Below, piece by piece: positions 13,031-25,244 of a stretch of DNA of 36,962 bases (position 1 is the stretch's first letter; every line of letters starts with the position of its first letter). The position numbers and the translations under genes were made by a program. The stretch lies in NCBI GenBank assembly GCA_018222765.1, contig JAAEZT010000033.1, positions 1 to 36,962 on the forward strand, read 5' to 3'. Source of the stretch: a bacterium. GTDB taxonomy: Bacteria > Verrucomicrobiota > Verrucomicrobiia > Verrucomicrobiales > Akkermansiaceae. The notes below the pieces were generated by a model. It saw nothing but the letters and a program-made list of their open reading frames with translations. It did not search any database and was not told the DNA's origin.

Positions 13031-14377
13031 ATGAAACTCTTGGTGTATGTCGTTCTCGCTTCCATTTTTTCAGGGGTTCTCTTCGCGGGGGCGCCGAATG
13101 TGATTCTGATCATGGCCGATGATCTTGGATACGGTGATGTGTCGTGTTACGGGAGCAAGCTCAATAGGACTCCCGTTCTCGACAAGATGGCGTCCGAGGG
13201 TGTGAAATTGACGGACTATCATTCGGGGTCAACGGTGTGTACTCCCTCGAGGATGGCCCTTTTAACCGGAATGTATCCGCCCCGCGTGGGATGGAAAGGC
13301 GGCGTTCTAGGATATAAGATGAAGATGTCGGGAGGCTTGTCGGCGGAGGCGCGAACAATGGCCGAGGTGTTCAAGGACGCTGGATACCGGACCGGGATAT
13401 CCGGGAAGTGGCATTTGGGTGATGCCCCCGAGCGTCTTCCGCAAGGGCAGGGATTTGAGCACGCATTCTATATTACATCGAGTAACAACCAGACGAAAAA
13501 GCTCTGGCGGAACGGCAAGTTGATCGTCGAACCTTTTAACAATCGCCGGCTCAGCGAGGAATTCACGAAGGAGGCGATTTCCTTTATTAAGAAAGAGCGG
13601 ACCCGGCCTTTTTTCCTCTACATGCCGTATACGGCGCCGCATTTCCCAGTCGAGGCTCACCCGGATTGGAACGGGAAGTCCGCGAACAAAGCATATGGCG
13701 ATGTTGTGGCGGAACTGGACGCCCGTCTGGGAGAGATTTTGAAAAGCCTGCGGGAGTTGGAGATCGAAAAGGAGACGATTGTCATTTTCACCTCGGACAA
13801 CGGGCCCCAGGAAGGGCGAAAGAACAAGACGGTGGCGGATCCCTATCGAGGTGGAAAGTGGAGTGTCCTTGAAGGGGGGACGCGGGTGCCCTGTGTCATT
13901 TCCTGGCCGGGGAAATTGCCCAAGGGGAAAGTTTGCAAGGAATTGGTCGCGTCCATTGATTTACTTCCAAGCTTGGCCAGCGCTTGTGGGATTGAGCTGG
14001 AGAAGAAGCGTGAGCTTCCTCTGGATGGTGTCTCAGTATGGAACACGCTCAGAGGAGACGAGGGTCCGCATCTCCGCAAAGACATGCTTTATTGGGATGG
14101 TTGGGCGGTGCCACAAGCAATTCGGGTTGGGCAGTGGAAGTTGTATTTCGATCAGGTCAAGGAAGTGAAGGGGTCGAAGGAGGGGCCGGTGCTGATCGAT
14201 CTCTCAACTGACATCGCCGAGGAAGAGGATTTCAGTAAGGACCATCCAGATCGTGTTGATGAGATGTTGGCGTTGGCCCGGAAGCGTTTGGAGGCAATTA
14301 AGGCAAAGAGCATTTCTCTCGGTGGCGAACCCCAGCAGTTTCCAAAGACAAAGGTGCCGCGATGGTTGGTGAAGTAG
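13031..14377 (+). CDS. Secreted sulfatase (type I, formylglycine-dependent)
   Basis: A 448-residue alkaline-phosphatase-superfamily sulfatase with a signal peptide (MKLLVYVVLASIFSGVLFAG). The metal-binding pair is D30-D31 in IMADDLGYGD. The modification site is CTPSR at 70-74, where C70 should be converted to formylglycine. GKWHLG and FTSDNGPQ are further active-site blocks. It probably removes sulfate esters from marine polysaccharides, a common verrucomicrobial trait. No sulfatase-maturing enzyme gene is in the window, so maturation must come from elsewhere. The substrate is not predictable from sequence alone. GH75-like gene follows 67 bases downstream with its own promoter. Confidence 0.92.
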   Translation: MKLLVYVVLASIFSGVLFAGAPNVILIMADDLGYGDVSCYGSKLNRTPVLDKMASEGVKLTDYHSGSTVCTPSRMALLTGMYPPRVGWKGGVLGYKMKMSGGLSAEARTMAEVFKDAGYRTGISGKWHLGDAPERLPQGQGFEHAFYITSSNNQTKKLWRNGKLIVEPFNNRRLSEEFTKEAISFIKKERTRPFFLYMPYTAPHFPVEAHPDWNGKSANKAYGDVVAELDARLGEILKSLRELEIEKETIVIFTSDNGPQEGRKNKTVADPYRGGKWSVLEGGTRVPCVISWPGKLPKGKVCKELVASIDLLPSLASACGIELEKKRELPLDGVSVWNTLRGDEGPHLRKDMLYWDGWAVPQAIRVGQWKLYFDQVKEVKGSKEGPVLIDLSTDIAEEEDFSKDHPDRVDEMLALARKRLEAIKAKSISLGGEPQQFPKTKVPRWLVK

Positions 14378-14405: not shown

Positions 14406-14433
14406 TTGAAGAGTCATTCTGGAGTGGTATATT
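14406..14433 (+). promoter_or_regulatory. Strong sigma70-like promoter of the GH75-like gene
   Basis: TTGAAG (14406-14411), a 16-base spacer, then TATATT (14428-14433), five of six matches to the -10 consensus. The ATG at 14445 starts 12 bases past the -10 box, so any 5' leader would be only a few bases. Confidence 0.65.
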
Positions 14434-14444
14434 GCGCCCCAAGA

Positions 14445-15782
14445 ATGGAGCAAAAATCAGACCCATACGCCCTGGATGGCGTTAAAAATCGGGCCCCAAA
14501 GCGCTTTCCCTGGTTCACCGTCTTTTTGGGAATGGTGGCTCTAGGCCTCGTCGCGGTCGTTTTTTCCCCGGTTCCGGAGAAAGTCCGTCGCAAGGTGGGA
14601 TTGGCCAAGGAAAAGCCCGTTTCCAAGCCGCTGCCACCGCCTGAGCCAGAAAAGATTATCGTGAAGGAAGAGGTGATTGTGGAGAAGCGGGTTGACGTCC
14701 GGCCTCCTTATTATCAGGTACAGCCAAATACCCTGATTTCGAAGAGTTCGATGGGAATCGATGTCAAAACGGTGGTGGAGGAGAAAAAGGGGCTGATTGC
14801 GTCGGCGGAACGGAAGCGGGATGGCAGCTATGAGGCGGAATACACCCTCAAGGTAAACCGCCCCGTGGCGGCGAAGTCATTGATGGAGCTGAAGCTGATG
14901 AATGCCAATCTGGATAAGATTTTGCCCGGCCTGCCGGAATTGCTGAAGAAGTCGACGGTCTCGCCCTTTTTTAAGAAGCTCTACGACAATAAATTTTCCC
15001 GGCTGAAGCGAAATGCGGGCCGGTTTGACAAACTCCTGACGAAGCACAATTACTTCGACTGCCAAACCATGCTGGAAATGGAGCATCCCGAATCGAAGCA
15101 GAAGATCTTTCTGATGCAGGGCGATATGGATGTCGTTTCCGATGGCTCCGATGGGGACCGTCTGGCGACGATGTCGGACAAGATTGTTAATTCTTCCAAT
15201 TATCAACCTTCGACGAGCTATGGCTGGTCAAAGCTCGGGACCACGGAGAATCCGCTCATCGCCGGCTGGCGTAAGCGTTTGGCTGAAGCCAAGAAGGCAA
15301 AAAATGCTACCGAGGTGACTCGATTGACGGCTGGCATTGAAGACATGAAGCGCCGGAGTTTTCTGATCGCGGACTATGATCCCTTCATCGTGATTCCCAT
15401 CGATGTCATTCAGGATCGTGAAAGTGCCTGGGGGCCAAACGTGGGAGACTACGTGCTCGTGATTTATAAAGAGAAAATCTTCCCGGCGATTGTAGGCGAT
15501 GCAGGGCCGAGTTTTAAGATCGGCGAGGGAAGTCTTCGCATGGCCAAGGCGCTCAACCCGAAAGCCGGTCCCTATAGCCGTCCGGTTTCGGAAGTGAACG
15601 TGACTTACGTCGTCTTCCCGAGAAGTTCTGGAAAATGGGGGCCGCCGAACTACGAAGATTGGCGGAAGGAATGCGAGAAGTTGGTCAAAAAAATCGGCGG
15701 CTTGGGCGAAGGATATTCCCTGGAGCATTGGGAGGATACCTTTCCGAAAAAGGAAGAGATCGACGGGGATACTCCAGAATGA
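14445..15782 (+). CDS. Membrane-anchored protein with GH75 (chitosanase-like) domain
   Basis: The 445-residue product has a cytoplasmic head, one membrane anchor (FTVFLGMVALGLVAVVF, about 22-40), a Pro/Glu/Lys-rich linker, then an external domain. The C-terminal half contains LMQGDMDVVSDGSDGDRL, ADYDPFIVIPIDVI, GDYVLVIYKEKIFPAIVGDA and KIGEGSLRMAKAL. The pattern of acidic residues and the final GDxGPxxxIGExS block resemble glycoside hydrolase family 75, known from fungal chitosanases. Chitosan-type hydrolysis is a family-based inference; I cannot verify the catalytic pair. The ATG at 14445 is chosen over a TTG at 14406 that is part of the promoter. It ends one base from the Fpg/Nei gene stop. 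Confidence 0.68.
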   Translation: MEQKSDPYALDGVKNRAPKRFPWFTVFLGMVALGLVAVVFSPVPEKVRRKVGLAKEKPVSKPLPPPEPEKIIVKEEVIVEKRVDVRPPYYQVQPNTLISKSSMGIDVKTVVEEKKGLIASAERKRDGSYEAEYTLKVNRPVAAKSLMELKLMNANLDKILPGLPELLKKSTVSPFFKKLYDNKFSRLKRNAGRFDKLLTKHNYFDCQTMLEMEHPESKQKIFLMQGDMDVVSDGSDGDRLATMSDKIVNSSNYQPSTSYGWSKLGTTENPLIAGWRKRLAEAKKAKNATEVTRLTAGIEDMKRRSFLIADYDPFIVIPIDVIQDRESAWGPNVGDYVLVIYKEKIFPAIVGDAGPSFKIGEGSLRMAKALNPKAGPYSRPVSEVNVTYVVFPRSSGKWGPPNYEDWRKECEKLVKKIGGLGEGYSLEHWEDTFPKKEEIDGDTPE

Positions 15783-15783
15783 G

Positions 15784-16605
15784 CTAAGACGGCTGACAAG
15801 TCGGGCACCAGGCCGTGGTGCGGGTGGCGATGGTGTCGCGGGCGAGTTCGCTTTTACATTTCGGGCAGGTGCCGCCTTTTTTCCAGCGATGTTGGAAGAG
15901 CCAGTTTTTAGGCGGGACGTTTTCGACGTAGGAACCAGGCGCAAAGCCGTCTTTTGATGCCGTCATGTTTTTCTCGGCGACATGCTTGAGCGCACCGAGG
16001 GCGACGAAACGGGTTTCTTTCCGAAGGGCGGCGGGGTTAAGGTCGGCACAGAGTTCTCCGGGATAGATACCCATGCGCCAGCAAATTTCGTCGGCCATCC
16101 AGTTGCCGATGCCGGGGCAGGCGTTTTGGTCGAGGAGGAGCGCTTTGAGGGGCTTTCGCGGGTGCCGCTCGACGAGTTTGCGAACGTGGGCGAGGGAAAA
16201 TTTGGAATCCTGGGGCTGGGGAGGAAATTCTGCCCAAGGATCTGCGCAATCATGGAGCATGATGCGACCGAACATACGGTAGTCATTGAAGATGAGTGCC
16301 GCCTTTCTGGTTCGGATAATGAGGTGGTCGTGCTTTTGGTCTTCGTGATCGGTCGAAGAGGTCGAGAGCTTGCCGGACATCCCGAGGTGGACTTCGAGAT
16401 GAAGCTTCGGCGCGAAAGTGAAGAGCATACGCTTGCCGTGGGCTTTTGAGGAGAGGAGCTTCTTCCCTTTCAAAATGCGCAGCGCAGGAGCGGGGCAATC
16501 ACGGTAAATGCGGGCTTTGGGATGAACATCGACTCTGGAGACGGCTTCTCCGTGGTGTTTGGCCCATTGGCGGCGGGCAAGTTCGACTTCAGCAAGTTCG
16601 GGCAT
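15784..16605 (-). CDS. Fpg/Nei-family DNA glycosylase (MutM-like)
   Basis: A bifunctional base-excision repair glycosylase/AP lyase of 273 residues. After Met removal the catalytic N-terminal proline is P1 with E2, in PELAEVE; MutM usually has PELPEVE. Other family blocks are the lysine in KAHGKRMLF, HLGMSGKL, DYRMFGRI, the helix-two-turn-helix segment QNACPGIGNWMADE, and the C-terminal zinc finger CPKC-x18-CPTC with the conserved arginine in ATRTTAWC. Substrate could be 8-oxoguanine or oxidised pyrimidines; the PELAEVE variant leaves this open. Confidence 0.9.
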   Translation of the reverse strand: MPELAEVELARRQWAKHHGEAVSRVDVHPKARIYRDCPAPALRILKGKKLLSSKAHGKRMLFTFAPKLHLEVHLGMSGKLSTSSTDHEDQKHDHLIIRTRKAALIFNDYRMFGRIMLHDCADPWAEFPPQPQDSKFSLAHVRKLVERHPRKPLKALLLDQNACPGIGNWMADEICWRMGIYPGELCADLNPAALRKETRFVALGALKHVAEKNMTASKDGFAPGSYVENVPPKNWLFQHRWKKGGTCPKCKSELARDTIATRTTAWCPTCQPS

Positions 16606-16718
16606 GGCGGAGACTTGTCGATTCAGGTTGATAGGTAAAATGATTTCTCAGGATGTCGGGCGTTCCGTTGGCAATTGGCACGGGATGCGCTAAGAAAGAA
16701 GTCGTGGCGGATAAATCA

Positions 16719-17471
16719 ATGGCTTTGATGGTAGTGAGCGACCTCGATGGGACCTTGCTGGATCACGGTGACTACTCCTTTGATCCGGTGCTGCCCATTC
16801 TGGACCGGATGGATGAAGCGGGGATTCCTCTGGTGGTGAATACCAGTAAAACGAGAGCCGAGTGGCTGGCGATTCGGGGAGATTTCGGTAATGAAGACCC
16901 GTTCATCGTCGAAAATGGCTCTGCGCTTTATGATGGCGCAGACTGTGAGGTATTCGGGACTCCGCGAGAGGAGATCTTGGAAACGCTGAAGCCTCTCCGG
17001 GCAAAGTATCGCTTTAAGGGGTATTCGGATGCTACGATTGCTAAAATCATGGAGTGGACCGGGCTGGAGCGACCGTCGGCGGAGAGATCTGCGGATCGGC
17101 ATTACAGTGAACCACTGGTTTGGCAGGACAGTGAGGAGAATGAAGAAGAGTTTTGTCAGCTGCTGGAAAAACGTGGTCTGACGACTTTGAGGGGAGGGCG
17201 CTTTCTGCATGTGCAGGGCCAGACCGATAAAGGGAAGCCGCTGGCGTATTTTCGAACAGGCGAGGCGGCCATCATCGCGCTGGGGGATCGCCCCAATGAT
17301 CTCGCGATGCTGAAGGCCGCCGATATTGGAGTAGTGATTGCTTCGCCCGATGGCTTTGTCCTTGAAGCAGAGGATGTTCTGCGAAGCACCGAAACCGGCC
17401 CGCGCGGTTGGGCCGAAGTGATGACCCAAATCTTAGATCAACTGAACATACCACAATCTACCAATGGCTGA
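16719..17471 (+). CDS. gpgP: HAD phosphatase, glucosyl/mannosyl-3-phosphoglycerate phosphatase
   Basis: A 250-residue HAD-superfamily phosphatase of the mannosyl-3-phosphoglycerate phosphatase group. Motif I is SDLDGTLLD (D8 nucleophile, D10), motif II NTSKTRAEW, the lysine lies in DKGKPLAYF, and motif IV is GDRPNDLAML. It would dephosphorylate glucosyl-3-phosphoglycerate to glucosylglycerate, since the next gene is the matching synthase. The ATG at 16719 puts the catalytic motif at the usual place; an in-frame ATG at 16653 would add 22 residues of no family resemblance. Its stop overlaps the gpgS start by eight bases. Confidence 0.87.
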   Translation: MALMVVSDLDGTLLDHGDYSFDPVLPILDRMDEAGIPLVVNTSKTRAEWLAIRGDFGNEDPFIVENGSALYDGADCEVFGTPREEILETLKPLRAKYRFKGYSDATIAKIMEWTGLERPSAERSADRHYSEPLVWQDSEENEEEFCQLLEKRGLTTLRGGRFLHVQGQTDKGKPLAYFRTGEAAIIALGDRPNDLAMLKAADIGVVIASPDGFVLEAEDVLRSTETGPRGWAEVMTQILDQLNIPQSTNG

Positions 17472-18684
17472 TTTTCACCAAGGCGGCGCCGTCGCGACAC
17501 TTCATAATTTAACCAATCGAGGCATCGAGGAACTCGAGAGCGAGTTGGTGAAATTTTCAAAACGACGCCCCATGGGGTTGCTCTTGCCTTCGCTGTTTTC
17601 GGAGCTGGAGACAGATGCCATGCCTCAAATCATTTCCGAGGTGAAGCAGGTTCCCTATCTCAATGAAATTGTCATTGGCTTGGATCGCGCGACCGAGGAC
17701 CAATATCGGGAAGCGTTGAAGTTTTTCAGTGTTCTGCCGCAGCATCATCGGGTCTTGTGGAACGATGGACCACGGTTGCGCCAATTGGATGCCGAGTTGT
17801 CGGAAAAGGGGCTTGCTCCAAGTGAAGAAGGGAAAGGGCGTAACGTTTGGTATTGCCTCGGCTATATGTTGGCCAGCAATCGCGCGGAAGCGATCGCGCT
17901 TCATGATTGCGATATCACTACTTATGATCGCTCTCTGTTGGCTCGCTTGATCTACCCGATGGCAAATCCACAGTTCAGCTATCAATTTGCGAAAGGATAC
18001 TATCCCCGGGTTGCGAATGGCAGTTTGAATGGCCGGGTGACCCGCTTGTTGGTGACACCGCTTCTTCGCTCCCTCGAGCAGGTGATTGGGGCCTCCGATT
18101 ACCTTCGGTATATGGACGGCTATCGATATCCTCTCGCCGGAGAATTTTCCTTCAGAAAAGACGTCATCCAAGACATTCGGATGCCCAGTGATTGGGGATT
18201 GGAAGTGGGAACGCTTTCAGAGATGTATCGGAATTACTCCAACAACAAGCTGTGCCAGGTTGACATTGCTGATCGCTATGATCACAAACATCAGGACATT
18301 TCTAGTGACGATCAGGAAAAGGGGCTTTCGAAAATGTCGATTGATATCTGTAAATTGTTCTTCCGGAAACTGGCGACAATGGGAGTGGTTTTCGAGAAGG
18401 GAACTTTCCGTTCCTTGAAGGCAGCTTATTACCGCAACGCCCTCGATTTTGTGGAGCGCTACAAGAATGACGCATTAATCAATGGTCTTGAATTTGATGT
18501 CCATAAAGAGGAACAATCAGCCGAGCTGTTTGCTGAAAATATTATCGCTGCCGGTCAGGTCTTTTTGAAGTCACCCATGGAGACACCGTTCATTCCCAGC
18601 TGGAATCGGGTCGAGAGCGCCATGCCTGACGTCTTCGAACGTTTCTTGGATGCAGTTGAAAAAGATAATAATGAGTTCTCCTAG
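17464..18684 (+). CDS. gpgS: Glucosyl-3-phosphoglycerate synthase (GT81)
   Basis: A 406-residue retaining glycosyltransferase that joins glucose from NDP-glucose to 3-phosphoglycerate. The start MADFHQGGAVATLHNLTNR and the block HDCDI (D148, D150; the metal-binding DxD) are typical of GpgS, as are YMDGYRYPLAGEFSF and DWGLEVGTLSEM. Family members act in the compatible solute glucosylglycerate pathway, often under salt stress with low nitrogen. The ATG overlaps the phosphatase stop (ATGGCTGA), and the stop touches the next ATG, so all three genes are coupled. A mannosyl-specific synthase (GT55/GT78) is less likely. Confidence 0.9.
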   Translation: MADFHQGGAVATLHNLTNRGIEELESELVKFSKRRPMGLLLPSLFSELETDAMPQIISEVKQVPYLNEIVIGLDRATEDQYREALKFFSVLPQHHRVLWNDGPRLRQLDAELSEKGLAPSEEGKGRNVWYCLGYMLASNRAEAIALHDCDITTYDRSLLARLIYPMANPQFSYQFAKGYYPRVANGSLNGRVTRLLVTPLLRSLEQVIGASDYLRYMDGYRYPLAGEFSFRKDVIQDIRMPSDWGLEVGTLSEMYRNYSNNKLCQVDIADRYDHKHQDISSDDQEKGLSKMSIDICKLFFRKLATMGVVFEKGTFRSLKAAYYRNALDFVERYKNDALINGLEFDVHKEEQSAELFAENIIAAGQVFLKSPMETPFIPSWNRVESAMPDVFERFLDAVEKDNNEFS

Positions 18685-20409
18685 ATGATGAGTCCATTGG
18701 ATGCCCTCCTTGGGAGGATTGGAACCCACCTAACCAAGATCTATGGTGAGGGTGATCATTCGGTTTTGGTTAACCACCTTGTGGAGGCAATGCGCTTGCG
18801 CGAGCATTTCTTCGAGCCCGCTCCATTTACGAACCATTGGTCGGAGAAGGACGTTGCGCTGATTACCTACGGGAACACCATTCAGAGGCGTGGATTCAAG
18901 CCCTTGGAGGAGTTGAAAGAGTTTCTCGATTCGCGGCTGCAGGAGAGACTTTCCATTGTCCATATTCTTCCCTACTTCCCGTGGACTTCCGATGATGGCT
19001 TTGCCGTGTCGGATTACAATTCCGTGAATCCTGAATTAGGGGACTGGTCTCATATCGAGGAAATCTCGACGAAGTATCGCGTTATGTCGGACCTCGTGGT
19101 CAATCATTGCTCGGCCTCGCACGAATGGTTTGTGCAATTCCAGAACGATGAGGAGCCGGGGATGAATTACTTTTTTCAGGCTGAACCTGAAGACGACTTA
19201 AGCGAGGTGGTTCGACCGAGAACTTCTCCCTTGTTGAGGCCGACAGAAACCCCGTCCGGAACCAAGCATGTCTGGTGCACTTTTGGGCACGATCAAGTCG
19301 ACTTGGATTTTTCAAAACCCGATCTTCTCGTGGAGTTGGTCAAGATTATCCGTTCGCATTTGGATCACGGAGTCAGTGTCTTCCGTCTCGATGCAGTTGC
19401 CTTTATTTGGAAAGAGATCGGCACGCGATCTATCAATCTTCCGCAGACTCACGAGCTCGTTCGGTTGTTCCGCACCTTGATTGAGCACGTAAAACCGGAT
19501 GCCGTGATCATTACAGAGACCAATATTCCCAATCAGGAGAATCTGGCTTATTTCGGAAACTGCAACGAGGCACATAGCATCTACAATTTCTCGCTCCCGC
19601 CTTTGCTGCTTCATGCCATCACCACCGGGAATTCTTTTCATCTCAAACAATGGATGATGCGTATGCCTCCCGCGCAGCCCGGAACGACGTATTTTAATTT
19701 CATCGCATCCCACGATGGAATCGGTCTGCGCCCGGCAGAGGGCCTTCTCTCGGATGAAGAAATCGACAGTCTGGTCGATCTGATGCGCAAGCGTGGAGGA
19801 TTAATTTCGGAAAGGGCATTGACCGGAGGTGAGAACCGCCCCTACGAGATCAATATCAGTCTCTTCGATGCGTTGGGCGGGGAAGATGAGTTTTTCTGTG
19901 CTCATACGGTCTTGCTGGCACTCGAAGGAATCCCGGCTTTTTACATTCACAGTCTGTTGGGGACCCGAAACGATTTCGAGCGCTACGGTCGGACGAAGCA
20001 CAACCGTCATATCAATCGCCATCAGTGGGATGCGAACAAGTTGGATGCTTTCTTGAATGATGCGGATTCCCATCATGCGAAGATCCTTGGTGAACTCCTG
20101 CGCTTGATTGAGATTAGAAAATCTCAGGCGGCGTTTCATCCCAATGCGACCCAGTTCACCTTGCATCTTGGGGAGCAGGTGTTCGCCTTTTGGCGTCAAT
20201 CAGTGGATCGCCGAAATAACGTCTTCTGCATTCATAATGTTTCCGGCGAGGAGCAGCGCATTCCTGTCTCCAGCATCAATCTGATTGCAACAGAGGATTG
20301 GATTGATCTTTTGAGCGGAAAAGAGCTGGAAGCGGAAGTCAGTGAAATTATCTTAAAGCCCTATCAATCGGTCTGGCTTGCCAATCGAAGAAAGCACCTT
20401 CCCTATTAA
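18685..20409 (+). CDS. GH13_18 phosphorylase, probably glucosylglycerate phosphorylase
   Basis: A 574-residue (beta/alpha)8 amylase-family enzyme of the sucrose phosphorylase subfamily. LPYFPWTSDDGFAVSDY is the subfamily block near 95-111. The nucleophile is D236 in FRLDAVAF, the acid/base E278 in ITETN, and the transition-state aspartate D344 in ASHDGIG. A GH13_18 gene fused in an operon with gpgS and the phosphatase points to glucosylglycerate phosphorylase, which releases glucose-1-phosphate and glycerate. Sucrose or sucrose-6-phosphate phosphorylase is the alternative. Start ATG follows the gpgS TAG directly. The stop overlaps that of the convergent PhoD-like gene by four bases. Confidence 0.87.
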   Translation: MMSPLDALLGRIGTHLTKIYGEGDHSVLVNHLVEAMRLREHFFEPAPFTNHWSEKDVALITYGNTIQRRGFKPLEELKEFLDSRLQERLSIVHILPYFPWTSDDGFAVSDYNSVNPELGDWSHIEEISTKYRVMSDLVVNHCSASHEWFVQFQNDEEPGMNYFFQAEPEDDLSEVVRPRTSPLLRPTETPSGTKHVWCTFGHDQVDLDFSKPDLLVELVKIIRSHLDHGVSVFRLDAVAFIWKEIGTRSINLPQTHELVRLFRTLIEHVKPDAVIITETNIPNQENLAYFGNCNEAHSIYNFSLPPLLLHAITTGNSFHLKQWMMRMPPAQPGTTYFNFIASHDGIGLRPAEGLLSDEEIDSLVDLMRKRGGLISERALTGGENRPYEINISLFDALGGEDEFFCAHTVLLALEGIPAFYIHSLLGTRNDFERYGRTKHNRHINRHQWDANKLDAFLNDADSHHAKILGELLRLIEIRKSQAAFHPNATQFTLHLGEQVFAFWRQSVDRRNNVFCIHNVSGEEQRIPVSSINLIATEDWIDLLSGKELEAEVSEIILKPYQSVWLANRRKHLPY

Positions 20410-23400
20410 CGTTGGTCCAATTGCCATACACCGCGGAAAAACTCCGCTTGTGATTCAATCTCAGGGAAGCTGACACGGGTGGTGACTTGGGTTGTTCCCT
20501 CTGGTGGATTGTTGTTGCGGGAAACTTCTTCGACTCCGACAGCAAGAGGTGAGAGAGGGGACCAATTCTCGAGGTCGTTGGAAAATTCAATCCTAGGAAT
20601 CGTTTGACCGGACTGCAGGGGGACCGCCGAGGTGAATTCCAGTGTGTAGGGATCGGTTGATACGACATCGGTATTGATGAGCGGAGTTGATTGGACGGAA
20701 CGGGGATTGGTTTGGAAATTGAATTCTTTTTCATTGGTGAAACCATCTCCATCGGGGTCGGCATCGTTTCCCGAAATGGCTTCATCTTGAAGTTCAGCGG
20801 CGGAGAAGTTGTTGCCCAGCCACACAGCCTTTGTGGGGAAAACCCTCACCGTTGTTTGCGCAGACAATGTGCCGTTCAGCGTCAAGGTGTATGTCGTATC
20901 GCTTAATGGGGAAACTGCAACATGCCCAACTCCGTTGATGGAAAGGTCGGTGACTTGACCGATGCCGTTGTCGATCGTCAGGTTTGCGGCTCCTTCCACA
21001 TTCCATTGGAGAATGGCTGCTTCTCCAGAAATGATGGAAGGTTTCAAGGCGGAGAAAGAGTGAATTGCTGTAGGTCCTTCGCTGATGGGGGAGAGGGCTT
21101 CGAGAACTTCCACATTGGCACTGTTGCCATAGGAGATTTCCACCCGATAGCTGTCGCTGTTGTCATAGACCGGCAAGCGGACAAGATTCCCGGCAAAGCG
21201 CATCGCGTAGAGGAGCTCGCTATTGGATTCACTATACACCGCGAGGACGGGAGCGCTCTCCCAGTGGGTTTCAATAATCGGGAGAAATCCGGTGGGGGAG
21301 CGGCCGTCGTTATCAGCCTGGTGAATCGTGACCGGCCAGTCGGGAAACTGGCTGCCTGTTTGTGGAAACTCCGGATCTGCGTGAATCGGCCAGGATTCAA
21401 ATGTAATCTGGCGCGTATCTTTTTTAATGCGAATGATCCCGTATCCTGCACCGCGGTCGTGGAGATTGACGGGGTCGATGTTGCGGGTTTGGTTGTAGTA
21501 TTCGAGTGGGTTGGCTGCGCTGACTATGCGGATGTGACCAGGGTGATTGGAGGTAATGTTTGATTGGCCAGTTGGAAGGGTGCCGTTGCCATCGAGATAG
21601 AAATCTCCTTTATATGGACTCACGGTGGCGGTCCGGCCACCGCTGTTGTGAACGGGATCCCAAACGCGAGGGAAGAAGTTTGAGATGGCGGGCGAAGTGA
21701 AGGAATAGCCGGCATCGGCCGGGCCATTAACTCCGTGATGAACAAGCGTGCTGAGATGTTGGTCACCTGCCAGCTGGAAGCTCCGTGATTGTCTGAGAAT
21801 TTCCCATGTTTCCTCACGCCGATGCTGCGGCCACCCGTGAGCATCTCGATCATTGAGCCCGAAGTTGTATCCTGATGCGGCGTGGGTATGAAGCATTCCG
21901 AAGGGTGACTGTGAGACAACGCACTTGATTTCCTGTCCGTCCCAATCAGTGTTCCAGGCTTTGAGGAAGTCTTTCTGTCGATCTCCGAGAAGAAATTGTT
22001 GATTGAGATCAACTGGGAACCCGTTGGGGCCGGTCTTGAATTTGCGATCTTCTAAAATTGCGAAGCCGACCTCGCCGTAGGTCATGCCGGTGAAGTAGAC
22101 TCCGATTCCTTGTTCGATCAATGGAGCAGGTTGAATGGCATTGTAGGGATCGGGAAGGGGCATGTGGCGGGTTTGGCAGCGCTCTACAAGACGGACCCAG
22201 GAAGGTGGTTGTTCATAGCCGCCGGTCGTCTGGTTATTTGTAGCGATACCTCCTTCACCCCAGAGATTACCCTGATAAACGTCGTGATCGTCGGGAATGG
22301 CAATAGTGGGCATATCTTTTGCCAGATCGCGGGTTTGTAACATCCAGAAGAACCATTTGTAGAGGTAGTCGTAGTGACGATTGAAATTCGAGCTGGTGTC
22401 TTTGCTGGTAGGTTGGCCTTCGTAGATTTGGTCCCCGAGTGCAAGGAGCACGTCGCCGCCATGCTTGGCAATGTGATCGTATGTCTGGAGATGAGGATGC
22501 CAGACTTTGACCGGCGACCAGTCCATCGTGTCAGCCTCCACGCTGCCGTCGGAGATGCGTTGGCAGGAAGTGTTGATGACCACGATTTCGTTTTTGTCGA
22601 CCGGGTCTTTTCGTATGGTTCCCCCCCAGTAGTAGGTTTCTCCATCGACTTGAACTCCCACACGGTAGTCAGTGTCGCGGTTGTCGTTCCACGAGGGGAT
22701 TTCGAAAGTAGCGGTGTAGGAAGAGGGACTGTCGGTGTTGTCGATGGGAGCATTGGCGATCTCGTTCCAGTTCGTTCCGTTGAATATTTCCAGCGTGGGG
22801 TTTGGTGTGGTTGCGAGATCGACGGGAGCGAGTTGAGTAGTCAGTCTCAGGGTTCGGTCATGCAGGGTGTGCATTGCTCCAATGATGGCGAGATTGCGTT
22901 CGGGTTCGGGTTGCAAGGCGTCTCCGGCTCCGGTGAAGTTATCGAACCAAAAGCTTGTTCCGCTCGTGCTGCGATTAGACATGAGTCCGAACGATCCGAG
23001 GATGCGGTCGGAGGGGACCTCGGTGGAGGCTTGGGAAATGAGGTTTTCGGTGACGCCTAGGGAGCTGATGGTGAGAGTGTAGGTTCCGGGTCCGGGATTG
23101 TAGCTGCCGATCAAGGTGATTCTGGCAGCGGATGGAAATCCTCCGCCTTGATTAGCTCCGGAGGCGATGAGAGTAGTTGCGCCTTCTGACATGTCTTCAA
23201 TGATGGCGGCACCATTGTGGTTGATGCCAAGGAAGGTTCCGAAGTCCCGGCCGAGGCCGTCGTGGACAAGGAGAGAGCCTTTCCAATCGAGGTTGGGACC
23301 GGCGCCGATGAGAAAGCCGGAGCGGGCATTAGTTCCGATCGTTCCGGAGTGAATTCCAGTGCGAACGGACAGCGCAAACGCTCCGCCGTTGCCGCGGATG

Positions 23401-25244
23401 GATGTGCCCACACGATGAAGGGTGCGGCGGGGTTTGGAGGTGTGAATGCAATTTACGCGGCCGTTTCGGACTTCCCAATCATGAAGTCGATTTCCCCAGT
23501 ATCCGGGCCCGGGCCAGACGCGGTCGGGCGAGTTGTCCCAGTCGGTGGCAAAGGAACCGTCAGGAAGATTGGCGGGATAGTGATCGAGGCGAACGTTATC
23601 GACGTAGCGCGAAAGCCTATCTCCGCCTCCCGGTCCGCGAAACCGGACGCCGATCTCTTGCCCGGCGTGGGCGTCAAGCGTGGCGGCAGGAATGGCGAGA
23701 TGGTAGTGGTTCCATTTGGTGACGCGTTCGGAAGTGAGGGTGTAGGATTGGCTGGCGATGACCTGAGGCGTGCCGCCATTGTCGACGTAGGCTTCGGCGA
23801 TGAGGTCGCCGGATGAGGGTTCCGGAGGAGCGGGGGGAATGGCGGGGTCGTTGTCATTGACCGAGAGGCGGAAGTCGGCAACGCGACCGAAGCCGGTTGT
23901 GCCATCTCCATTTTCAGCGCGGAAGGCGACGAAGAGGCGTTTGCCGGCGGCGGAGGCCGGAATGGGATTGAAGTCGGCCGTGAACTCTTCCCACGTGTTG
24001 TTTCTGGTCGAAAGTGGAGCGAGGATGGTTTGCAAGATGGTCCGGGATCCGAGGATATCGTCGTTGGAAGTGGTGTAGAGGAAGGTGGCGACCCGGTCTG
24101 CGGAATCATTCCAGTTCGAGGCATCACGCCAGACGAATTTTATGGTCAGGACATCGTCGGTGACGAGGGTGTGCCCGCTGTCGTTGGCGAAAACTGTTTG
24201 CGTAGCGGTTTGGTTGAGGACGGTGGTGCGGGTGCCGTTGTAGCGAAGATTGGTGCGGGTTGCTTGCGCGCCCTGGCCAGCGCCGAGATTGGTCCAGTAC
24301 GGAGTTTCCTGGAATGTGCGCGAATCGGCGAGGGAGGTGTCTTCGGTAAAGTCACCATTCCGAAGACCGGGTCCGATGAGGAGAGGATTGAAGAGTGAGA
24401 GCACGAAGTCATCGACTTCGGCCTGACCGTCAGGGGAGTCATTGCCATCGATGCCTTCGAGCAGGACGAATAACTTTTTTCCATCGGCAGAGGCGGGAAT
24501 GGGAGCGAAGGTGGTTTTGAAACTTTCAAAAGCGGCATCGGTCGACGATGTTCCCGACAAAACGGATTGGATATTGTTGCGAGTTCCTGAGGGGGTGTCG
24601 TCCGAAGTGGTGAAGAGAGTGACTTGAATTTCGTCATCTGCTTCGCTCCAATTCTCTCCATCCCGCCACTGATATGAGAGTTCGAGTTTTTGGCCGGCGG
24701 TCAGGGTGTAGCCCGTTTCGATGGCGAACAGGCGGTTGCCATCGTCGGTGAGCGCGGCATTACGTGAATTGTCTGGCGCGGGAAGGCTGCCGTTGAGAGT
24801 GGTGGCGATTGTGTTTTGATTGCCGGAAAGATTGAACCAGTTCGGGGTGTCGTTGAAGGAACGAAGATCGGTATCAGAATTGTCGGCGTTGAAGTCTCCG
24901 TTGAGAAGCGCCCCGCCGATGATGGCGTTGGGTGGAATTACCGAAGTGTCAGGGCTGAGGGAGGCGTCGAAACGAATGGAGTAGGCCGCCCCGGTTTCGA
25001 TCTTGTGAGCGCTTAGCTGACGGGTGGCACCGGAGTCACCAAAGAGAATTTTCCAACGCCCATTTCCGTAGTCGGTATCTCCCTCGGAAAGATAGGCGTC
25101 GCCCTCCCAGCCCATCAAGGAAGGGTCGGAGATTGGGATGTTGTCTGCCCCGCTATTGAGTTCGACTCCGGGGTTTTGAAGAGCGATGGGCGCGGAGGCA
25201 GTCCAAAGGGTTGAGAGGAAGAAGATTGAAAGGTGGAATTTCAC
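20406..25244 (-). CDS. 1612-residue secreted multidomain PhoD-type phosphatase
   Basis: The largest gene in the window. A signal peptide (MKFHLSIFFLSTLWTASA) precedes two tandem repeats at about 111-284 and 291-462, sharing GxLxNGDF, TPxW, a WRDxxNW block and a closing PIPASAxGKxLFV. Residues 480-780 contain more beta-sandwich, carbohydrate-binding-like material (KWNHYHLAIPAA, SGTSFWFDNFTG). The PhoD-like metallophosphatase core lies at about 885-1290: NTSCQR, LALGDQIYEG (937-943), IPDDHDVY (983-990), LEDRKFKT and LAGDQH (1158-1163). An Ig-like domain (about 1401-1469), a calcium-binding segment DADPDGDGFTNEKEF (1494-1508) and a SNDLENW module end the protein. The start is a GTG at 25244. Probable role: extracellular phosphodiester or phosphomonoester hydrolysis on a glycan or surface. 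Confidence 0.9.
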   Translation of the reverse strand: MKFHLSIFFLSTLWTASAPIALQNPGVELNSGADNIPISDPSLMGWEGDAYLSEGDTDYGNGRWKILFGDSGATRQLSAHKIETGAAYSIRFDASLSPDTSVIPPNAIIGGALLNGDFNADNSDTDLRSFNDTPNWFNLSGNQNTIATTLNGSLPAPDNSRNAALTDDGNRLFAIETGYTLTAGQKLELSYQWRDGENWSEADDEIQVTLFTTSDDTPSGTRNNIQSVLSGTSSTDAAFESFKTTFAPIPASADGKKLFVLLEGIDGNDSPDGQAEVDDFVLSLFNPLLIGPGLRNGDFTEDTSLADSRTFQETPYWTNLGAGQGAQATRTNLRYNGTRTTVLNQTATQTVFANDSGHTLVTDDVLTIKFVWRDASNWNDSADRVATFLYTTSNDDILGSRTILQTILAPLSTRNNTWEEFTADFNPIPASAAGKRLFVAFRAENGDGTTGFGRVADFRLSVNDNDPAIPPAPPEPSSGDLIAEAYVDNGGTPQVIASQSYTLTSERVTKWNHYHLAIPAATLDAHAGQEIGVRFRGPGGGDRLSRYVDNVRLDHYPANLPDGSFATDWDNSPDRVWPGPGYWGNRLHDWEVRNGRVNCIHTSKPRRTLHRVGTSIRGNGGAFALSVRTGIHSGTIGTNARSGFLIGAGPNLDWKGSLLVHDGLGRDFGTFLGINHNGAAIIEDMSEGATTLIASGANQGGGFPSAARITLIGSYNPGPGTYTLTISSLGVTENLISQASTEVPSDRILGSFGLMSNRSTSGTSFWFDNFTGAGDALQPEPERNLAIIGAMHTLHDRTLRLTTQLAPVDLATTPNPTLEIFNGTNWNEIANAPIDNTDSPSSYTATFEIPSWNDNRDTDYRVGVQVDGETYYWGGTIRKDPVDKNEIVVINTSCQRISDGSVEADTMDWSPVKVWHPHLQTYDHIAKHGGDVLLALGDQIYEGQPTSKDTSSNFNRHYDYLYKWFFWMLQTRDLAKDMPTIAIPDDHDVYQGNLWGEGGIATNNQTTGGYEQPPSWVRLVERCQTRHMPLPDPYNAIQPAPLIEQGIGVYFTGMTYGEVGFAILEDRKFKTGPNGFPVDLNQQFLLGDRQKDFLKAWNTDWDGQEIKCVVSQSPFGMLHTHAASGYNFGLNDRDAHGWPQHRREETWEILRQSRSFQLAGDQHLSTLVHHGVNGPADAGYSFTSPAISNFFPRVWDPVHNSGGRTATVSPYKGDFYLDGNGTLPTGQSNITSNHPGHIRIVSAANPLEYYNQTRNIDPVNLHDRGAGYGIIRIKKDTRQITFESWPIHADPEFPQTGSQFPDWPVTIHQADNDGRSPTGFLPIIETHWESAPVLAVYSESNSELLYAMRFAGNLVRLPVYDNSDSYRVEISYGNSANVEVLEALSPISEGPTAIHSFSALKPSIISGEAAILQWNVEGAANLTIDNGIGQVTDLSINGVGHVAVSPLSDTTYTLTLNGTLSAQTTVRVFPTKAVWLGNNFSAAELQDEAISGNDADPDGDGFTNEKEFNFQTNPRSVQSTPLINTDVVSTDPYTLEFTSAVPLQSGQTIPRIEFSNDLENWSPLSPLAVGVEEVSRNNNPPEGTTQVTTRVSFPEIESQAEFFRGVWQLDQR

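Follow-up and report, generated by a model that had tools for sequence, protein, structure and literature searches.

A three-gene operon predicted to make and recover glucosylglycerate in an Akkermansiaceae bacterium, and its fused counterparts in relatives

We describe here a set of three genes on the + strand of a 36,962-nucleotide (nt) stretch of DNA, called the window below, which covers positions 1 to 36,962 of contig JAAEZT010000033.1 (assembly GCA_018222765.1) of a bacterium of the family Akkermansiaceae, phylum Verrucomicrobiota. They encode a gpgP-like HAD phosphatase (16719..17471, 250 amino acids (aa)), gpgS, a GT81-type glucosyl-3-phosphoglycerate synthase (17464..18684, 406 aa), and a GH13_18 phosphorylase that we predict to be a glucosylglycerate phosphorylase, GGaP, of EC 2.4.1.352 (18685..20409, 574 aa). 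We estimate at roughly 0.8 the probability that this operon makes and recovers 2-O-alpha-glucosylglycerate, with the net flux set by metabolites. Three-gene operons of this kind are already known and the window holds a further example; of the 8 other GpgS-bearing genera in the family, 4 have synthase and phosphorylase fused into one protein of about 1000 aa. We found no mention of this fusion in the literature searched, where coverage of subscription papers was poor, so that the silence counts only weakly in favour of novelty; the fused enzyme that appears in PMC10873239 is a different one, for glucosylglycerol (papers are cited here and below by PMC accession, for the accessible part of their text).

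Results

A preliminary description of this region had reported a HAD phosphatase, a GT81 GpgS and a GH13_18 enzyme encoded by overlapping or abutting genes; the layout and its coordinates were confirmed, and family matches support all three identities. The phosphatase open reading frame (ORF) overlaps the GpgS ORF by 8 nt, and the phosphorylase ORF begins on the base after the GpgS stop codon (TAG, 18682-18684) in the same frame, so that the junction at 18682..18690 (+) reads TAG ATG ATG, a stop followed by two in-frame phosphorylase start codons, as judged from the sequence and from relatives. GpgS and the GH13 protein each have a single match in the genome, which comprises 4.33 Mb in 87 contigs.

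The phosphatase scores above the cutoff of TIGR01486, the mannosyl-3-phosphoglycerate phosphatase (MpgP) family (195.5 bits; cutoff 164.75), and matches the narrower MpgP equivalog models, every one below its cutoff. Its relatives among solved structures are MpgP enzymes (PDB 1xvi, 3ztw and 1wzc), and the motifs DLDGT and GDRPND, along with synteny, mark it as a HAD-IIB phosphatase of the MpgP/GpgP type. The start is placed at ATG 16719; an alternative in-frame ATG lies at 16653, but in a protein starting there the family matches would begin only near residue 24. The synthase matches NF040724, glucosyl-3-phosphoglycerate synthase, over residues 3-405 (355.3 bits, E 3.9e-106; strict cutoff 700), has no Pfam match at E 0.001, matches mycobacterial GpgS structures weakly, and carries the motifs GKGRNVW and HDCDI. 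The family to which the phosphatase belongs would also be expected if the pair made mannosylglycerate or the longer mannosylglucosylglycerate, and the planctomycete Rhodopirellula baltica makes both glucosylglycerate and mannosylglucosylglycerate (PMC13342039). We regard such a product as quite improbable here, as the only models that the synthase matches are those of GpgS, the operon also encodes a glucoside phosphorylase, and none of its three genes codes for a further glycosyltransferase.

The phosphorylase matches Pfam Alpha-amylase, and its nearest solved chains by sequence are GH13_18 phosphorylases. With its AlphaFold model (pLDDT 92.6, pTM 0.92), Foldseek ranked amylosucrases and sucrose hydrolases first, followed by sucrose-6-phosphate, glucosylglycerol and sucrose phosphorylases; because amylosucrases outrank the GH13_18 phosphorylases, the fold alone cannot separate the specificities. 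According to published rules, a glucosylglycerate phosphorylase carries (T/S)ETN at strand beta-5, and its loop A has a Glu at the position occupied by Gln in most clades; substitution of Asn275 or Glu383 in the Meiothermus silvanus enzyme, which we infer to be the Asn of TETN and the loop-A Glu, severely lowers its activity (PMC7178133). The window's phosphorylase has TETN at residues 277-280 and a loop A reading GGENRPYEIN, with E388 in RPYE. Escherichia coli YcjM, tabulated as a characterised glucosylglycerate phosphorylase (PMC8950772), is 38% identical to it and has TETN and PYE (SPYE in YcjM) in common, and all 18 proteins of one alignment, YcjM included, have TETN together with the loop-A Glu. 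Among 171 collected GH13 sequences longer than 430 aa (the window's own and duplicates counted), 170 have [TS]ETN, the exception being L174; the loop-A pattern gave Glu in 159 of the 171, with 10 sequences unparsed, one mis-hit elsewhere and one X, and is not used as a count. TETN, D236, E278 and D344 are invariant in an alignment of 25 proteins. We take D236 to be the catalytic nucleophile, E278, within TETN, to be the acid/base and D344 the stabiliser.

Might the GH13_18 enzyme instead act on sucrose or sucrose-6-phosphate, its neighbourhood being incidental? Its top NCBIfam name is sucrose phosphorylase, and its closest PDB sequences are sucrose and glucosylglycerol phosphorylases. Its score against that sucrose phosphorylase model, TIGR03852, is however only 210.6 bits, below the cutoff of 334.4, and its loop A contains none of the motifs N(L/V)D(I/L/V)YQ, GFDVHQ or KXXYYQ described for sucrose and sucrose-6F-phosphate phosphorylases (PMC7178133). 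In three aligned solved chains (two sucrose phosphorylases, one glucosylglycerol phosphorylase) loop A reads YQ, with Gln in place of the Glu, and PEIH or PEVH replaces TETN; the synteny with GpgS holds across phyla. We thus rejected a sucrose or sucrose-6-phosphate phosphorylase identity on its loop-A and beta-5 fingerprints, and consider it very improbable. The loop-A sequence GENRPYE is compatible, too, with GEXRPYE, the pattern of an unassigned myxobacterial (Corallococcus) clade; that clade carries AETD, not TETN (PMC7178133). The fingerprints, the synteny with GpgS and GpgP, and the frequent kinase neighbours described below support the prediction that the substrate is glucosylglycerate and not sucrose or sucrose-6-phosphate. 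The specificity residues, whose comparison with characterised GH13_18 members the preliminary description had called for, are thus those of YcjM and differ from those of the sucrose types, in line with its placing of a glucosylglycerate phosphorylase in this position.

Within the window's genus, GpgS was found in 26 of 27 genomes, with the HAD phosphatase no more than 1.5 kb away in all 26 loci; in 25 of them the phosphorylase is the next gene downstream, a genus-wide conservation which argues that the gene trio is not a chance association. The synthase and the phosphorylase are split in all 25 loci with both genes: 14 junctions are in frame, with the stop followed by a nearby ATG, 10 are ATGA-type overlaps in another frame, and one uses the third frame. 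Such variety indicates real two-gene arrangements and not one mutation.

Elsewhere in the family the two enzymes are often joined. GpgS was detected in 53 of 260 family genomes, in 9 genera; 17 of the 53 lie in open frames of 993-1068 aa, spread over 4 genera and never in the window's genus, and the 16 of these 17 that were inspected are all fused. The frames outside the inspected set are G439 (long) and G466, G443, G444 and G467 (464-811 aa, fragmented genomes). Two other family loci are split, G343 without a HAD gene nearby and G446, and in G515 and G342 no phosphorylase lies within 1.5 kb of GpgS. A survey of the phylum with the phosphorylase as query gave matches at E <= 1e-60 in 55 of 288 genomes, the window's own counted; 13 of these 55 frames also contain GpgS and are therefore fused, at about 1000 aa. 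Setting the window's own aside, 41 are left. For 40 of these (38-47% identical), the stretch inspected holds no full-length GpgS; in the last, L076, the phosphorylase faces a complete GpgS gene with its HAD partner on the opposite strand. Several of the unfused phosphorylases have a weak, shorter GT81 match some kilobases off. A second, stand-alone GGaP-like type in Verrucomicrobiota (L045, L047, L050, L051, L056, L059, L061, L062 and others) lies a few kb from such a shorter, weak GT81 gene on the opposite strand.

In total, 40 fused loci were listed, some of them duplicates or cut by contig ends (L034:2998-5982 (-), L033, L035-L044, L073, L113-L119, L121-L129, L140-L145, L148, L149, L153, L182 and L190). 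The domains of these proteins, which occur in the four family genera, in other Verrucomicrobiota and in 2 of 36 GpgS-bearing Planctomycetota, are homologous to the window's proteins and stand in the same order; the relatives have one polypeptide of about 1000 aa where the window has two proteins. A poor AlphaFold model of a fused protein (pLDDT 62.5, pTM 0.54, from 12 alignment rows) gives no statement on domain packing.

How the fused and the split forms are related was considered on two trees of GpgS plus phosphorylase, both quick LG+G4 reconstructions: one of 86 rows, hand-picked from 142 loci with GpgS, which came with a warning of joined long branches, and one of 63 rows, built after removing 23 rows that had long branches or were duplicate or redundant, among them L111 and L130, two aberrant split loci of the family. 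Leaving L076 out of the count, the fused/split label changes once on the 86-row tree, so that one fusion explains the data, and the 25 fused rows form a starred clade in the 63-row tree; L130, a split locus of the window's family, joins the fused rows in the 86-row tree with moderate support. In both trees the window's genus is nested among unfused gammaproteobacterial sequences, with Microbulbifer as its neighbour and separate from the family's fused version, which suggests that the window's operon may have been acquired by transfer from a gammaproteobacteria-like unfused source; a single clade of the genus and the fused rows is not rejected (approximately unbiased test, p 0.068). The shared frame, with a stop directly before an ATG, and the continuous frame in four other genera of the family would also be expected if a nonsense mutation had recently broken a fused gene, or if the assembly were in error here. 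The 25 of 25 split loci of the genus with their three junction types, and the single fused/split change with the window among the unfused sequences, led us to reject a break or an error at the TAG, to which we attach hardly any probability; the in-frame TAG is best read as the unfused state.

The gene set extends well beyond the family. Marine Gammaproteobacteria, SAR11, Bacteroidota and Planctomycetota have related sets, which frequently include a D-glycerate 3-kinase. When the order was surveyed, GpgS of this kind turned up in 116 of 288 genomes, with an identity of only 33-43% for the majority of those added. In a scan of named genomes, for which we considered the best 80 of 593 loci under a ranking that favours contiguous matches, the HAD phosphatase is present in 77 of the 80 and the fusion in 11; ten of these eleven come from records named Verrucomicrobia, Opitutae, Opitutales, Opitutaceae, Puniceicoccaceae, Luteolibacter or Akkermansiaceae, and the eleventh from the planctomycete Mariniblastus. 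Evenly drawn surveys gave GpgS in 38 of 275 gammaproteobacterial genomes, none of the 38 in a fused-size frame (largest frame 565 aa), and in 36 of 294 planctomycete genomes, 2 of them in fused-size frames; among 20 planctomycete loci inspected, 2 carry the fusion and 6 a downstream phosphorylase; in one locus the phosphorylase is encoded on the opposite strand, and the other 11 lack it within 1.5 kb. Two Pelagibacteraceae loci (L185 and L186) show the gpgP-gpgS-phosphorylase order of the window, with diverged phosphorylases, and glucosylglycerate synthesis genes have been reported for offshore SAR11 (PMC12636525).

A D-glycerate 3-kinase domain, neighbouring or fused, accompanies 37 of the best 80 of the 593 named loci. 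In five fused Verrucomicrobiota loci (L038, L040, L041, L042 and L073) the phosphatase frame has an extra N-terminal domain of about 310 aa, which in L042 matches solved D-glycerate 3-kinases (6ckg, E 4.8e-14; 7xpc, E 3.2e-13) and in the other four matches the domain of L042 or L038; kinase-phosphatase fusions are also found in Methylophaga (L170) and Pseudoalteromonas (L173). A glycerate kinase beside the cluster is an independent sign that the phosphorylase releases glycerate. The window's operon contains none, and in published clusters the kinase is frequent, not constant. The best match to a GLYK-type kinase in the window's genome is not a clear one (E 0.0015 over 98 residues), kinases of PF02595 and PF13660 were not found there by searches that were positive in control genomes, and none of the 27 genomes of the genus matched a second kinase query, in a search without a positive control of its own.

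Both flanking genes lie on the opposite strand. Upstream, mutM (15784-16605) and the phosphatase gene diverge from an intergenic region of 113 nt (16606..16718), which from its sequence we presume to be the promoter region; downstream, the stop codon of an ORF with a PhoD domain (20406-25244) overlaps that of the phosphorylase by 4 nt, and a terminator scan found a weak terminator-like hairpin 3' of the phosphorylase stop (20433..20447, +). The PhoD-domain ORF (-) is 1612 aa long, with the PhoD-like phosphatase domain at residues 917-1170. Farther upstream, an ORF with a GH75 chitosanase domain (14406-15782, +) adjoins a sulfatase ORF (13031-14377).

Discussion

We infer the following scheme from the gene identities, gene order, conservation and specificity fingerprints, all of which were established by sequence comparison. 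GpgS would join glucose from nucleoside diphosphate glucose (NDP-glucose) to 3-phosphoglycerate, generating glucosyl-3-phosphoglycerate, from which the HAD enzyme would remove the phosphate to yield the compatible solute glucosylglycerate, perhaps to serve the cell under salt or nitrogen stress; the GH13_18 enzyme would then split glucosylglycerate with phosphate into glucose-1-phosphate and D-glycerate. Translation of the abutting genes is probably coupled, in which case the making and the breaking enzymes would be produced together, and the net flux would be governed by phosphate, glucose-1-phosphate, 3-phosphoglycerate and salt, and not by separate transcription.

Let us consider, as an alternative, that the phosphorylase is mainly synthetic, joining glucose-1-phosphate and glycerate as a second, cheaper route to glucosylglycerate. 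GGaP is reversible in vitro, with a high affinity for D-glycerate (PMC11009771), and no glycerate kinase was found here that would pull the reaction towards breakdown. In many relatives, on the other hand, the gene set is paired with a glycerate kinase that would remove the glycerate. The concentration of phosphate in cells usually exceeds that of glucose-1-phosphate, which also counts against net synthesis, and we consider a mainly synthetic role unlikely.

Returning to an operon that both makes and recovers the solute, simultaneous making and breaking would amount to a futile cycle unless the enzymes are regulated, which makes the control at the enzyme level proposed in the preliminary description a reasonable suggestion. 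The fused relatives give it its strongest support, because with both activities in one polypeptide separate transcription is impossible there; they strengthen the proposal without proving it. More tentatively, and with somewhat less than even confidence, we suspect an obligatory 1:1 co-production of the two enzymes, accomplished by a fused bifunctional protein in part of the Verrucomicrobiota and some Planctomycetota and by the stop-start junction in the window's genus; in lineages where the kinase is fused to the phosphatase as well, two bifunctional proteins might then form a closed cycle leading from 3-phosphoglycerate via glucosylglycerate to 3-phosphoglycerate again, acting as a metabolite-controlled osmolyte thermostat.

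Several observations weigh against the proposed operon and its function. The scores of GpgS and of the GH13 protein are both under the strict equivalog cutoffs, and E388 is nearly invariant, not invariant, in the 25-row alignment, in which row L180 reads X. A promoter scan found no sigma-70-like match in the 113-nt gap at 16606-16718, and the three terminator-like matches in the region are not above chance (mean of 5.0 in shuffled sequence). One member of the genus (G487/L112) has no phosphorylase adjoining GpgS. In 16 of the 30 best gammaproteobacterial loci the phosphorylase follows downstream on the same strand, in 8 it lies nearby on the opposite strand and in 6 there is none within 1.5 kb, so that, with 14 of 30 loci arranged otherwise, a shared transcript is not universal. 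Lastly, the window's genome has no GLYK, PF02595 or PF13660 glycerate kinase to take the released glycerate and GLYK was not found in the genus, so that the operon, which the preliminary description had called self-contained, appears to be so only in part.

That GGaP genes cluster with those of glycerate kinase, GpgS or GpgP has been published (PMC7178133), and homologues of gpgS, GGaP and gpgP have been reported together in 198 of 250 Marinobacter genomes (PMC10873239). In Synechococcus sp. PCC 7002, the same three activities are assigned to the neighbouring locus tags SYNPCC7002_A2021, A2022 and A2023 (gpgS, GGaP and gpgP; PMC10873239), in an order that seems different from the window's, with the phosphorylase between synthase and phosphatase, judging by the locus-tag numbers only. 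Also close is the glyK-gpgP-gpgS-ggaP set of marine Gammaproteobacteria (Marinobacter, Alteromonas, Salinimonas and others), which shares the gpgP-gpgS-ggaP order and whose GpgS is 66-71% identical to the window's in the six best survey matches; many of these sets have an upstream D-glycerate 3-kinase, unlike the window's genus, where none was found. Characterised glucosylglycerate phosphorylases are those of E. coli (YcjM), M. silvanus and Spirochaeta thermophila (PMC7178133). YcjM, with the same TETN and loop-A Glu as the window's enzyme, adjoins ABC-transporter and sugar-enzyme genes and, unlike it, has no annotated GpgS or GpgP in the surrounding stretch of 20 kb.

As of 2020, the in vivo role of glucosylglycerate phosphorylase had not been experimentally confirmed, according to PMC7178133. 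The pairing with the synthase in 25 of 26 loci of the genus, taken together with the fused relatives, leads us to argue that the phosphorylase has its place in turning over an osmolyte made by the cell itself, and not in scavenging. Where the two enzymes are fused, co-production of the opposing activities is unavoidable, which favours control at the enzyme level, and the fused proteins would allow the question of making versus breaking to be tested on one purified polypeptide.

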